From NCBI GenBank assembly GCA_963402885.1, contig OY727103.1, positions 2,668,501 to 2,732,500 on the forward strand: 64,000 nucleotides of DNA, in the 5' to 3' direction. Made by a program: the position numbers and the translations under genes. This DNA is from Antedon bifida. Lineage: Eukaryota > Echinodermata > Crinoidea > Comatulida > Antedonidae. Below, piece by piece: positions 3,001 to 9,000 of this stretch; position 1 is the first letter of the stretch, and each line of letters starts with the position of its first letter. A model generated the notes under the pieces. It was not told where the DNA came from. It saw nothing but the letters and a program-made list of their open reading frames with translations, and did no database searches.

Positions 3001-6000
3001 ATTTCTCACTCGCTTTGCACAAAGGAATTCCAATCAAGGTAAAGCAAAAATCAACATTTTTTATTAAAATTTGTAAACATGTACACAGGAGAAATAGTAA
3101 ACACATGCTGTCTATCAATTTTGATAATGATAATAATGTTCAATTTAATATCGAAGTGCTGAACAATCAACAGAAAAAAGAGCAACAAAAAATGAGGTTG
3201 AAGCCTGTTTTCCACTAGGCATATCAAAAGCATTTTCATATTCATATTTCTATCTCAATCTACTTTTTATGAAGCGAAAAAAACTACTTTATTTAACTTA
3301 ACTTAACTATAATTAGTTATCCGCTTGGTATACCAAGCGGATAACTCCTTGTAATTGTATGAGATCAATATTTTTTTTCTGTATTATTCTTCTTTCCTTC
3401 CTTCCTTTTTGTGAGTCGTGTTCCTCTAAAATGTGTAAACATAACATTTCATAACTTTGACAACATATGGGCATTTACGTGAAGTTGTGCACCTCCTATT
3501 TTTGAATGACGTCATAGTTGCGCAACGTGACTTATGCGCAATTTTATGAATTTCAATGATTGATCATAGATTAAAAACCAAAAGTCATTTAGTATTGACA
3601 CTTTGACAAAATTTAAGTCATATCAGGGGCAAACTTTCTACGGATTAAAAATGGCATGTTTGACAAGAAGTTACGCGCGCACGCGCATTTAAAATTTCAA
3701 AATGCGCAAAATTAATTTCTAATCAACTTTTTACGCGTTTCTTGTCATTTTGAGCATGTCAAAAATTCCCACGGGCGCGCAATTTTTTATGCGCGCGGTC
3801 CGCACATAGCGTTAAAAACATATTTTTTTCTCTTGAATTATATTTTTCAAGCCTTTCCCAGTGATTTTGAAAACAATTTAGACCTTTTCCAGTTTAAATA
3901 ACGCCATACGAACACGTTGAATTAGACAATTCGTGCGCGTTTTTTATGAAAAAGCTTAAAAAATCGTCAAAATTATGTCTTTTTTTAAACAGTCATAGTT
4001 TCTAAAGTAAACCGTTAACCGTTTATTTTTATTACAAAATCTAGAAGTTGATGAGTTGTAGATATCGGATCATGCATCGATAAGGCTAAAAAAACATTGT
4101 GACGTCATCGTATGGCCACACGAATGTAAAATATAGGATTTTTGTCTCTTTCGTTATTGCTCATCACATTCAATGGAGCGCATCACGCTTATCTGTATTC
4201 ATTTTTCTCCTACATTTATATATTGTGTAGGTCAATCAACTTTCTTTATCATGAGATAAAAATATTTTAATTTTTATGACGTCATCATGCCTAAAAATTT
4301 TAATTACGTGGGTCATTAATTTCATCTTTACAGTAAATTTTAATCTGTAATAGCTCGTAAGAATAAAATGTGATAATCACGATTAAAACGTTTTCTGGAA
4401 GCTATTGGATTGTAGATACGAATTCATGTAAACATTTTGCCAATCGGATGTTGTGACGTCATCATATGGCCAGTTGAATAAAAAAAGTCGTATTTTCATA
4501 TTTTGCGTAATAGTTCATCACATTTAAAAGGGTGCGCATCTATATTTTACGTATTCAAATTTCTTCTACACGTTAATATGTTGTTCCTGAGATAATTTCC
4601 TTCTGAAATTGCTATCTAAGTGTTTCATTCTGATACCGTCGCCATGTTAAAAATTGGAATAAATGGCGGGTCCCGTAATTTCACCTATTCTACACTGTAT
4701 GTAATATGTATACAGCTTATACTGTTTGCATGTATATACTATATGACACAAAATTCAGCACTAACAGCATGTCATATTCTTCAGTTCTTGTCATAATGCC
4801 ATAATCTTTATCTGTGTGCAATATTCCAACGTATGACGTGCACGTGGCGTTTGTCGTGGTGCGGATAACTAACTCGTCAAAGTGACGAGTTTCATGTCTA
4901 GTATTATTTTAGTTTGGTTCAATGTAGATGTTTAAAGCACTGTCTACACTATCAAATTAGTTTGACAAAAAAGTGTGATGTGCCCAAATATGGTAGTGAT
5001 ATGCCCAAATATGGTGGTGATATGACATCATCATGTCCATATATGGGCACATCACATTGTTTGTCACATAAAGTTTGATAGTTTGACAGAGCTTTAGAGG
5101 CTGTCACTGCAGTAAACAGTGTGTATGAAAAGCTTGCTAAATAATTACATAAATTGATACTGTAATAGTAAACATAATGTGTGTTCACATTTAGAAAGTT
5201 ACTGAATTATTGTTACAATGTAAAATGTGTAATACTTGGTTTCACTTTCAGTTTTGTAATACGTATTGTTGGACAAGTTATATTTTAATATATATCTACT
5301 TCCTTAAAATAGAGATAGATTATTAATTAGTTACATTGAGGCTATATGCGAGTTAAATTGTAAAACCTATTAGTTAAGTAGTTAATGTGAAACTTGGGTG
5401 AGCTGAAATTGAGCTTAAAGTTGTATTCAAGTCTTAAGAACAACTTATTTAATTACTTATTCACTTTATTCATTAAATAACTATACTATTAGAAAGGTAA
5501 AATGGATTTCACACATTGTAATTTACAGAACTTTTAATTCAATAAAACTATCCCAAACTCCAGGGAAATTTATTTTTAAATATAATTTAATATTTGCATT
5601 AATTACTAATTTGATCACCATCTCCTTTGGATGCCTAAATGCAGCTGTTTGTATATTACAAGGAAAGATACCCATCCCGGGAGACGACATTTTGGCCGGC
5701 ATACTTCATCCAAGATGACGGATAATTTTGTTGAACGTAGTTTAAAGCCTTGTCAAGGACCTTGTCCATGTGTATGGATACATGAAATAGAAAAAGTGTG
5801 TATAAAAACCTAAAAGATAAGCCCATGAGCCTCTTTTCAATGTTCTACGGTAGATGAAATGTAACACAATTTCCTATCTACTACCTCCTTTAGGTCCTTT
5901 AATGCACCAGTTGGTATATATCTGATTGTTTGTACTTCTTACATAGTCACCCGATTCGCTGTGAGAAAGTGGCTGGGCGTCGGTCAGTTGTACTGGCTTC

Positions 6001-9000
6001 TTTTTTGTTTGTGGCTTAACAAATTTCTGAGAGCCAGTACGTACCATTTGTTGAGATTTGTTTGCGGGGGGAGGAGGGGGTAATTTAATCCGGCTTGCTT
6101 TACGTATTAATTTCAAATTCGGAATTTCCATATCTTCTTCATCGTCATCGTTTTTCTGTACATGCTTCACTGGTAAGATTTCACCGCCTGTTTTGTCATT
6201 TTTTAAGACAGGTGACAACATATTAACATTCATGTTATGTGTATTCACAGGTAAACCGACAATCTTTTTCGCAACTTTCGGTTTCGGTGACACTAAGAGG
6301 TTCGGTTTACTCGCGATTTTTGGTGATTGTGGATTTCTCTGTTTATCTTCAACAGGTGATGTTATCGCGTTTGGAAAATAGAATGGTTGCGGAAGTTTGC
6401 TGTCTAATTTCGTCTGTGAAATTTTGATAGAATTCTCTGATTTCAAAACGTTTGGTTTACATTTAATCGGAGGGAGACTAGATTTGAGATTCATAGACGC
6501 TTTTTTGATGACAGAAGTATCTATAGTTAGCATGTTGTTTGGATGTAAAGAGGTGCACGCCATTGGACTGGTAGGAATTGCTGGCGGACTTTTTGCCTTA
6601 CAGTGTATATTCTCCAGCTTCTGTGCAATATTACTCCTATTTCCTATATCTGACGCGTCCTCAGCTTTCCAACTCTTAGATTCCAAATCTTGAAAATGCG
6701 TGATTGTTTCTTTTTCAAACTTCGCTTGTAAATGCAGATCCTCTGGGATCTCGTAGCAATCTTCAGAATCGTTGAATGACGGACAACCATCTAAATCTGA
6801 ATTTGGAATTTCGTATAGCTGGCTGGCTCTTTCATTAACTGGGTCATATACAGTATCGTCATAAACATCAGATAGCTCTTCTTCGTTATGTATTTCTACT
6901 GGTGTTTCAATGTTTGTACAACCTTCTTTCAATTTAGTTGGTCCATAGGGCGAGTCATAAATATTTTCCTCATCAATTTCGATATTTTTAGTATTTTCAG
7001 TGTTAACAATTTCATACGTATCTTGTTCATAATCGATTTCAGGTCCATTAGGCGTACCGGTGTTTTGTGATGCTTTCTGTTGTTTCTGTACTCTTGAATT
7101 TCTTTTTCGACGGACAATAAATATAATTATACATATTAATAATAATAAGAACAGTGCTCCTCCGGAAGCGGCAATGATTATTGTTATAAGAGAGGACACA
7201 GATAACTGGATAGTAGCGGACCCGGTCAATCCTAACGGATCAGTGACCGTACAAGTAATTGTAAATCCATTATGACTTTCCTTAATACCTTTGAGTATTA
7301 GTTGGCTTTTGTTGATGTTCAATTCTGATTTTACTCCAGGAGGCAATGCACTCCAGTTGATTGTGTAATTCTCAAATATAGAGGTCATATGATATAATAT
7401 GTGAACATCTGATCCAGAGAGCGGTGACTCCGGTATTTGCTGTAGTTTAACGACGGGTGCCAAAATGGTCAAATTGCAAGAATTTCTAGATTCATCATCC
7501 TCACAAATAATAGTATTATTTTCTTTTATAGACGTTTTAAGAACGTGTTTTTGAGGACCTTGTTGGTCACTTGTTGTAATGGTCATGCGATCCTGAAACC
7601 CATAGCAGTATATTACACCATTTGCTTCAGACAAACTACATTCATTTTTATTAGCAGCAACAGCTGTTTCGTGCCCTTTCAGCTGGAACATAACAATCGG
7701 CACAATCAACAATTTCAGAATGATCATGTTAATGCCTCTTCTTCACATACTGCGTTTAGTTTTGCTAATATGGTACTCTATATGCTAACAAGTAAAGAGT
7801 GAATGCTATATCAGTGTAATTTGAAGCAACTGCTTTGTACGATAATAAGTCAGGAAAAATCCTTGAACACTTCTTCCAGGACCTCCATCTGTGTGTTAGT
7901 AGAAATGAAAAATATTACCTTCCATTTGTAGGTATGTTGCTTCATTTTTAGTGCTGTACCCTCGAGAAATAAAGTGGTGAAATGGTCGCAACAAAACGGA
8001 ACAATCGTTGAGCTGGCCACTGGTTTGTCAAAGGCCTCTCTGTGAAAAAGTAGTCAGGTTAAAACCTTACCAACCGTACTGGTGGCTGCCTGATTCTCGT
8101 CTTGTCCATACATACCACTCAGGCAAAAACATAGTAGGAAATGATGATGTTAAAATTGAAAGTAAATTATTATTTGTTTTATTTCCTCATTGTGTGTGAA
8201 TGCAAAACCAAAACAAAGAGATCATTAACAGTGTGAAAATGCAACTTAAATCTCGACATCACGACAATATATCATGTTTTTCCAGTTATTGACATGCAAT
8301 GTTAATGTTATTTCAGAGATAGAGTTAATAAAAACCTTGTAAAATTGTTTCATTTATAATTAAGTCTATCTGTATATGCAACATGATCTATGCAAATTAC
8401 ATTATTGATACTGACATTCTCCCATAAAATTCCCTGAAAACTGGCAATGTTTTTATGGTACAAAATGTTTTGAATTCTACATTATGAATCAAAAGACATT
8501 AAATTGTTGAAATGCTATCAATGACCTGATGTCAATGGAGATACAGATAAAATAAACAAAAAGCTTAATGGAAGCAATTAGGGATGTAACAAGAGTTGTA
8601 TCAAGTATCATAATAATCCTGGTTTAATTACGAATTAGTGTGTGTGAAATGGAGCTTAAGCTCTGTCTACACTATCAAAGTTTATGTGACAACAAAATGT
8701 GATGATATGGACATGATGATGTCATATCACTACCATATTTGGGCATATCACTATCATATTTGGGCACATCACATTGTTTTTGTCAAACTAGTTTGATAGT
8801 CTAGACAGAGCTGCTTTATGTGACTTTTCATAGGTTTTTTCTCATCTTCACCAAGGTTTAAGTTTGTAATTGGTTGATTTAGAATTTTTCTCTTTCCTAT
8901 GAGTTCATGTAAATGATAACATACTAACTTTTATTTCAGACGTTCCTCATACTATTGGCTGTGTAATGCTTTAGATTTATACTGCCCAGTACAATGGGAG

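Follow-up and report, generated by a model that had tools for sequence, protein, structure and literature searches.

A single-exon gene lying antisense within an intron of the glutaminyl-tRNA synthetase (QARS) gene of the crinoid Antedon bifida is best explained as a coding gene for a type I receptor of the immunoglobulin (Ig) superfamily, a divergent relative, without a V domain, of more than 100 intronless Ig receptors that have expanded in this genome (probability roughly 0.6). Its reading frame is intact and nested in the host intron, its product carries a hydrophobic helix followed by a tail with tyrosine motifs, many of its relatives are long single frames, and structure modelling predicts one Ig fold.

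The window (the whole stretch of DNA analysed, 64,000 nucleotides) contains the gene and its host intron as follows.

3039..8939, forward strand: QARS intron hosting the ORF (5,901 bp), the ORF being on the opposite strand
5874..7727, reverse strand: single-exon receptor gene, 617 codons plus stop
5569..5574, reverse strand: AATAAA, 299 nt after the ORF stop
5465-5470: second AATAAA, in an A+T-rich flank with many AATAAA/ATTAAA words

The original prediction of an intact, intronless 617-codon frame nested antisense in a QARS intron is borne out by its exact coordinates (complement of 5874-7727, ATG at 7727, stop at 5874-5876), by an in-frame TGA six codons before the ATG, which makes the whole coding region one open frame, and by a Markov control in which chance ORFs reached 191 aa at the longest (mean 122; 100 third-order sequences of 64 kb) against 617 aa here. 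The host was said to have 16 exons; 15 are found inside the window, where, with exons chosen by eye at GT-AG borders, they join into a single spliced frame. A 514-aa stretch of this frame matches solved glutamine--tRNA ligase chains (E 1.7e-247), and QARS seems to start to the left of the window. When the frames of the ORF are scored by codon log-odds, the true one comes out on top (+0.089 per codon), while control windows from the intron have a mean of -0.19 and a maximum of -0.006. This coding signal stems from the tail (+0.14); codons 1-215 score -0.007, about the same as the best intron window.

By its sequence and structure model, the product reads as a single-pass type I receptor of Ig type, with the following layout.

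7653..7727, reverse strand: possible signal peptide, residues 1-25 (hydrophobic segment 1-19)
7452..7652, reverse strand: short first region, residues 26-92 (from alignment; mostly low confidence in the structure model)
7194..7451, reverse strand: predicted membrane-proximal Ig domain, residues 93-178 (from alignment and structure model)
7113..7193, reverse strand: transmembrane helix, residues 179-205 (from hydropathy), followed by RRKR
5877..7112, reverse strand: cytoplasmic tail, residues 206-617 (412 residues), with 11 tyrosines

The predicted transmembrane helix is confirmed by hydropathy and lies in the same frame as the tail. The claimed signal peptide holds in part, as residues 1-19 are hydrophobic, but their mean hydropathy (1.67) is under the 1.9 threshold applied. 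Similarly, structure prediction of residues 26-178, originally taken together as an Ig-like region, upholds one confident domain at about 93-178 (pLDDT mostly >90, with Foldseek matches that are Ig domains), residues 26-92 being modelled mostly with low confidence. The latter region corresponds in position to the second Ig domain of the relatives but is about 25-30 residues shorter; it carries cysteines at 30, 41, 75 and 84, all of which except Cys41 match the relatives' columns in the alignment. The Ig domain keeps W125 and C159, but its first canonical cysteine is replaced by tyrosine (HILYHM), and thus it departs from the C..W..C pattern. There is no room for a V domain between the start and residues 26-92. 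Five N-glycosylation sequons fall in the ectodomain and three in the tail. Pfam matches of the ORF are all under their cut-offs, and a PDB sequence search gave none above the cut-off, the best being sodium channel beta-4 (E 0.055).

A genome search at E up to 10 gives the ORF 37 matches besides itself, for the most part weak (E >0.002 for 33 of the 37). Open frames of at least 390 aa contain 34 of these, at eight places, although the 34 are not independent, because 22 come from two C7 arrays. A search with the relative L055 gave 109 scored matches (from 379 candidates), every one a stop-free frame of 376-1207 aa and at least 108 of them distinct, and four genome searches combined give at least 160 one-exon frames, mostly in tandem arrays. 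The QARS-intron gene itself is solitary. Ordinary Ig exons are abundant in the genome: only 17/150 scored I-set matches lie in frames of at least 376 aa, the figure for scored V-set matches being 60/150. Frames with the D2-D3 signature in the fetched loci carry a transmembrane helix in 51 of 64 cases, and the other 13 reach the locus edge. Among ten tandem copies on C7, Ka/Ks (ratio of means) is 0.23-0.34 for the Ig domains and 0.11 for the transmembrane segment plus tail. In the mitochondrial COX1, AAA stands for Asn, ATA for Ile and TGA for Trp at positions conserved with vertebrate COX1, consistent with the echinoderm code, and the sense strand of the COX1 stretch contains 46.5% T. Eleven contigs (C1, C7-C16) account for at least about 312.9 of 315.6 Mb. 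The T content and the contig number are both crinoid-like traits. Eleven haploid chromosomes would be at odds with the 36-46 diploid chromosomes that a review reports for most echinoderms (PMC3308324).

The relatives are typically V-C-C. The V domain shows an invariant C..L..C across alignment A3, made of 17 chosen members; L063, with its atypical N-terminus, was excluded from it, so this feature is not universal; the second domain has four cysteines (PxC..C..C..C) and the third has C..W..C. The V-C-C ectodomain model of L055 (mean pLDDT 92.4) resembles the ectodomains of DIP/IgLON, nectin-like proteins and SIRP alpha. When the ORF ectodomain is compared with a profile of 16 relatives that leaves the ORF out, the two match (hhalign probability 95.1, E 3.1e-8), with 34.3 bits against 6.9 for the best of 500 shuffles. 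Against the family profile, however, the ORF is the lowest-scoring complete frame (29.5 bits, the next complete frame scoring 50.7). Given the missing V domain and the loss of one canonical cysteine, the QARS-intron gene is classed as a divergent relative and not as a member. Because the family profiles pick up numerous ordinary Ig proteins in the PDB too, Ig homology alone is no proof of descent.

The tail carries the following motifs, and the counts originally given for it are correct: 11 tyrosines where at least ten had been claimed, three YxxP, one TxYxxV, one YxN and a polyproline.

6948..6959, reverse strand: YxxP, Y257 (YDSP)
6837..6854, reverse strand: TxYxxV, Y294 (TVYDPV)
6804..6815, reverse strand: YxxP, Y305 (YEIP)
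6744..6755, reverse strand: YxxP, Y325 (YEIP)
6066..6080, reverse strand: polyproline PPPPP, residues 550-554
5910..5918, reverse strand: YxN, Y604 (YTN)

YxxP is a Crk/Nck-type docking motif, and TxYxxV (ITSM) is of SH2D1A type. The prediction of a multi-adaptor receptor fares differently in this tail and across the relatives. In the QARS-intron tail alone no motif is significant: the three YxxP (1.04 expected) are reached by 359/5000 shuffles, at least one TxYxxV is present in 402/5000 shuffled tails, and the YxN count is reached by 3086/5000. In the tails of 25 non-redundant relatives, with shuffles that disregard repeated segments inside those tails, YxxP is enriched (36 vs 17.4 expected, 0/1000 shuffles), as is PxxP, YxN is more weakly so (25 vs 16.0 expected, 16/1000 shuffles), and TxYxx[VI] is not significant (60/1000 shuffles). 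Crk/Nck-type docking is therefore favoured over an SH2D1A code. Searched at E up to 10, the ORF tail has no second match in the genome.

The gene was originally proposed to be a retrocopy with retained function. If a multi-exon receptor had been retrocopied into the QARS intron and the copy had remained functional, the resulting gene would have no introns and could occupy a single locus antisense within another gene, as seen here; a reverse-transcriptase-like ORF is present elsewhere in the window, and the available text of PMC8903837 includes a proposal of retrotransposition for the intronless kirrelL of echinoderms. However, no run of at least eight A occurs within 2.4 kb downstream, the sole such run in the 3' intron flank being 2,495 nt past the stop, and there is no poly(A) remnant near the ORF 3' end. 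Exact words of at least 11 bases shared by both flanks, sought as a target-site duplication, are dispersed-repeat words with the exception of one isolated word, which leaves no convincing exact duplication of that length. A search of this genome found no intron-containing parent gene, the tail matching only itself and the ectodomain matches lying mostly (34/37) in long single frames. The marks of an old event could have eroded, and a duplicate of a gene lacking introns from the outset would present the same picture. With more than 100 single-frame relatives, intronlessness is a family trait that is uninformative on how the QARS-intron copy arrived. The reading as a lone retrocopy is thus not supported, and a processed copy of a multi-exon receptor appears unlikely, the intronless layout of this gene probably having been inherited from the receptor family.

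Two further explanations concern what the frame is now. It may be a decaying relative, open but non-functional, in which the V domain and a portion of the domain after it have disappeared, which would account for the missing V domain, the short and poorly modelled first region and the substituted Ig cysteine. Some relatives do look broken (3/61 matches in one genome search for relatives span stop codons). Against decay, there are 617 stop-free codons with coding-like usage in the tail, the hydrophobic start, transmembrane helix, basic RRKR and five ectodomain sequons are retained, and a neutral frame so diverged from all relatives would be expected to have stops, making a relic quite improbable. 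The gene could also be the local orthologue of KirrelL, described in the available text of PMC8903837 as an Ig-domain transmembrane protein of echinoderms encoded by an intronless gene and required in skeleton-forming cell fusion. The broad layout is the same, the study reports an intronless kirrelL from every echinoderm it examined and worked with one from a crinoid (PMC8903837), and YxxP plus polyproline would suit a role in adhesion or fusion. Yet KirrelL is well conserved in the phylum according to the same text, while the ORF matches no Kirrel-type PDB chain (E up to 10). Since the family profile matches Roughest, SYG-1 and Kin of IRRE-like 1, a different relative appears to be the stronger candidate for KirrelL, and orthology of the QARS-intron gene itself is very unlikely.

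As a precedent, compared by description only, KirrelL is nevertheless the closest, being an Ig transmembrane protein from an intronless gene (PMC8903837); it is described there as a gene of skeleton-forming cells, whereas the gene set here is large and diverse, and its QARS-intron representative has a single confident Ig domain. The three-Ig adhesion proteins DIP/IgLON (PDB 6efz, 6dle) are closest to the three-Ig model of L055 (TM-scores ~0.5-0.6), but the QARS-intron ORF is without the V domain, and the comparison is one of ectodomain folds. CEACAM, CD33, nectin-like proteins, LAG3 and SIRP alpha likewise have Ig-fold ectodomains, a resemblance of fold with 11-22% identity among the matches listed. 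Several of them are single-pass proteins with tyrosine signalling tails; the motif enriched here, in the relatives' tails, is YxxP. Cas-family adaptors, which are cytoplasmic, also have a cluster of YxxP substrate sites near proline-rich stretches, but here the three predicted YxxP sites are in a receptor tail.

If the QARS-intron gene is a coding relative of the intronless receptors, it would be descended from that family and transcribed antisense to QARS. The Ig part of its product may meet a surface ligand or a like receptor, upon which Src-type kinases could phosphorylate the tyrosines of the YxxP cluster and Crk/Nck-type adaptors would be recruited, while the proline-rich part of the tail may bind SH3 or EVH1 proteins. 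The outcome of contact would then be cytoskeletal change serving adhesion, engulfment or cell fusion, and not classic ITIM inhibition. A broader proposal, possible but doubtful, is that the more than 150 intronless Ig receptors form a germline repertoire that signals mainly through YxxP and Crk/Nck-type adaptors, for recognition of self or pathogens apart from ITIM/ITAM, with the V-less QARS-intron gene and its unique long tail perhaps serving as a shared signalling partner or scaffold.

Invertebrates are known for large immune and Ig-type gene families. To our knowledge, however, it is uncommon for a complete three-domain receptor to be encoded in one exon and for dozens of such genes to stand in tandem, and the top-listed open-licence papers contained no report of such an intronless receptor family. 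The single-exon layout makes these genes easy to clone and test. Their expression in immune or skeleton-forming cells would mean that the animal has a large set of receptors for recognition, and the family would then illustrate how a founder gene without introns can come to be copied many times and spread through a genome.

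The 617-codon receptor ORF is complete and intronless on the complement of 5874-7727, as originally predicted; six codons before its ATG the frame is closed by a TGA. Among 100 simulated 64-kb sequences (third-order Markov model), the longest chance ORF was 191 aa. Codon log-odds, scored against a model trained on exons of QARS (the glutaminyl-tRNA synthetase, GlnRS, gene), are highest in the true frame; it is the tail (+0.14) that carries this signal, whereas the first 215 codons score -0.007, no better than the highest-scoring intron window. The predicted antisense nesting also holds: the plus-strand gene around the ORF is GlnRS, its 15 exons (307 to 11425) joining in one frame and a 514-aa stretch matching solved GlnRS chains (E 1.7e-247). 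A phosphotriesterase-family gene in two frames (12448-14192, minus strand, E 1.6e-14 and 7.1e-10) adjoins QARS on the opposite strand.

Host intron and parts of the receptor protein
3039-8939, plus strand: QARS intron hosting the receptor ORF
Residues 1-25: possible signal peptide
Residues 26-92: short four-cysteine region
Residues 93-178: Ig domain
Residues 179-205: transmembrane helix, then RRKR
Tail: 412 residues, 11 tyrosines

A motif count confirmed the proposed tail contents, namely the tyrosine number, three YxxP, one TxYxxV and one YxN; there are also seven PxxP motifs and a PPPPP. The Ig-like ectodomain was recovered in part with AlphaFold2 (32-row alignment), as one Ig domain with pLDDT mostly >90, the region before it having block means of 39-56. 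Foldseek searches with this model found mostly Ig domains, among them those of CEACAM, CD33, nectin-like, LAG3 and PDGF-receptor proteins. By sequence alone, neither Pfam nor the PDB gave a match reaching cut-off. A second intronless Ig-like ORF in the window (26261-26716, plus strand, 151 aa) has a hydrophobic start, a hydrophobic C-terminus resembling a GPI signal, a weak V-set match short of cut-off (E 0.0047) and one other genome match (C8:29563275, 31% identity).

The mitochondrial COX1 of the window's own genome (315.6 Mb, 27 contigs) agrees with the echinoderm code; the T content of the COX1 stretch (46.5%) and the concentration of almost the whole assembly in eleven contigs would be crinoid-like. 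When this genome was searched with the receptor ectodomain (E up to 10), 37 matches other than the ORF itself appeared. Of these, 34 lie in open frames of at least 390 aa; the remaining frames measure 112, 207 and 287 aa. Most are weak (one at E < 1e-3, four more between 1e-3 and 4e-3), and they are not independent, since they cluster at eight places, mostly in arrays (14 in one array on contig C7, 8 in another, 7 in one C15 array). Frames of at least 376 aa held 17 of 150 scored matches in an I-set control (best 150 of 1,170 candidates), 16 of these 17 from one C1 region, and 60 of 150 in a V-set control (best 150 of 624 candidates). Therefore, short-framed ordinary Ig exons are common in this genome, and the long-single-frame bias of the window ORF matches is not general to Ig domains. 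On C1, 12.09-12.33 Mb carries dense I-set matches, nine within a single 2,920-aa open frame that is titin-like by its look. The many V-set matches at C13 ~19.7-23.7 Mb, in short frames mostly of ~100-190 aa, are a second, different V-domain expansion of multi-exon or single-domain genes.

Two further queries were used. For the relative L055 (the same gene as L027), 379 candidates yielded 109 scored matches, every one in a stop-free frame; these make up 108 distinct frames, 376-1207 aa long. L013 gave 61 matches, three spanning stop codons. Four genome searches combined yield at least 160 distinct frames of at least 376 aa, counted by length and match rather than by established anatomy of each frame; the V-set search is the sole source of 24 and the ectodomain search of 12, the window ORF being one of these and several of the other 11 being weak. 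Singletons number 25, window gene included, and the largest groups are as follows.

Largest groups of frames of at least 376 aa
C7, 18.39-18.55 Mb: 39 frames
C7, 24.70-24.73 Mb: 20 frames
C15, 6.48-6.74 Mb: 17 frames
C15, 16.35-16.43 Mb: 16 frames
C12, 24.22-24.36 Mb: 15 frames

The relatives typically have a three-Ig ectodomain (V, D2 and the membrane-proximal D3; V-C-C), modelled for L055 with mean pLDDT 92.4 and pTM 0.76; its nearest structures are DIP and IgLON, followed by nectin-like, NCAM and SIRP alpha. A transmembrane helix is present in 51 of 64 fetched frames with the D2-D3 signature (a set counting the window ORF, and two genes twice), and all 13 without one extend to the locus edge. 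Among ten C7 tandem copies, Ka/Ks (NG86, ratio of means over 45 pairs) is 0.23 in V, 0.34 in D2, 0.25 in D3, 0.40 in the linker and 0.11 in the transmembrane segment plus tail; Ka exceeds Ks in 1/45 pairs for D3, 1/45 for the linker and none for other parts. Thus, judging from sequence divergence, these paralogues, to which the ratios apply rather than to the window gene, are under purifying selection, strongest at the signalling end.

In the window tail, shuffling matched the observed counts of YxxP (3 seen, 1.04 expected), TxYxx[VI] (1, 0.08) and PxxP (7, 3.6) in 283 to 402 of 5000 trials, depending on the motif; YxN does not exceed chance. In 25 non-redundant tails of relatives (4,863 aa, 1000 shuffles), some of which carry repeated units such as LYAKP that inflate the count, the figures are YxxP 36 vs 17.4 expected (0/1000), PxxP 52 vs 27.7 (0/1000), YxN 25 vs 16.0 (16/1000), ITIM 19 vs 12.1 (32/1000) and ITSM 4 vs 1.5 (60/1000, not significant), with YxxM at chance level. 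Y[AET]xP, a narrower pattern picked post hoc and taken as descriptive, occurs 16 times vs 3.0 in relatives and twice vs 0.18 in the window tail.

Against a profile of 16 relatives built without it, the window ORF scores 95.1 probability with hhalign (E 3.1e-8, over the membrane-proximal domain) and 34.3 bits with HMMER (best of 500 shuffles 6.9). It is the lowest-scoring complete frame in the six-frame set of fetched loci (29.5 bits, next 50.7). The family profiles also match hundreds of known Ig proteins, so this score shows Ig homology without establishing that the ORF belongs to the family; the argument for descent rests on single-exon layout, part order and the genome-wide match pattern. 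Unlike its V-C-C relatives, the window ORF lacks a V domain, and in its last domain Tyr stands in place of the first cysteine; it is therefore termed a divergent relative. A protein-coding, V-less relative of the family is the best explanation (probability about 0.6), rated slightly lower than at first because the genome matches are weak and non-independent. For the same reason the alternative of a decaying, non-functional relative was rated slightly higher, and yet is unlikely. The window gene is judged real and probably live.

Retroposition, proposed from the intronless frame, is unlikely and left no convincing marks: no run of at least 8 A occurs in the 2.4 kb downstream of the stop, and exact 11-base words common to both intron flanks derive, save one isolated word, from palindromic repeat copies. 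These MITE-like copies (~4930-5105 and ~8650-8825, opposite orientations) flank the receptor ORF in the QARS intron; the repeat's pattern recurs at 472, 31929 and 34717. Elsewhere in the window are a reverse-transcriptase-like ORF (36145-37143, minus strand, RVT_1 E 8.7e-15), probably a mobile-element fragment, and three adjoining minisatellites (55011-62532; 39 bp x 28.9, 25 bp x 206.4, 38 bp x 32.2) that yield long chance ORFs. According to PMC8903837, kirrelL is without introns in all echinoderms examined, and early echinoderm retrotransposition is raised there as a possible origin. Among the top literature matches in open-licence papers, none described a large family of intronless Ig receptors from echinoderms.

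As an Ig receptor the window gene is ordinary; what is unusual is its place as an outlier in a large family of single-exon receptors. The remarkable feature lies in that family rather than in one intronless receptor.
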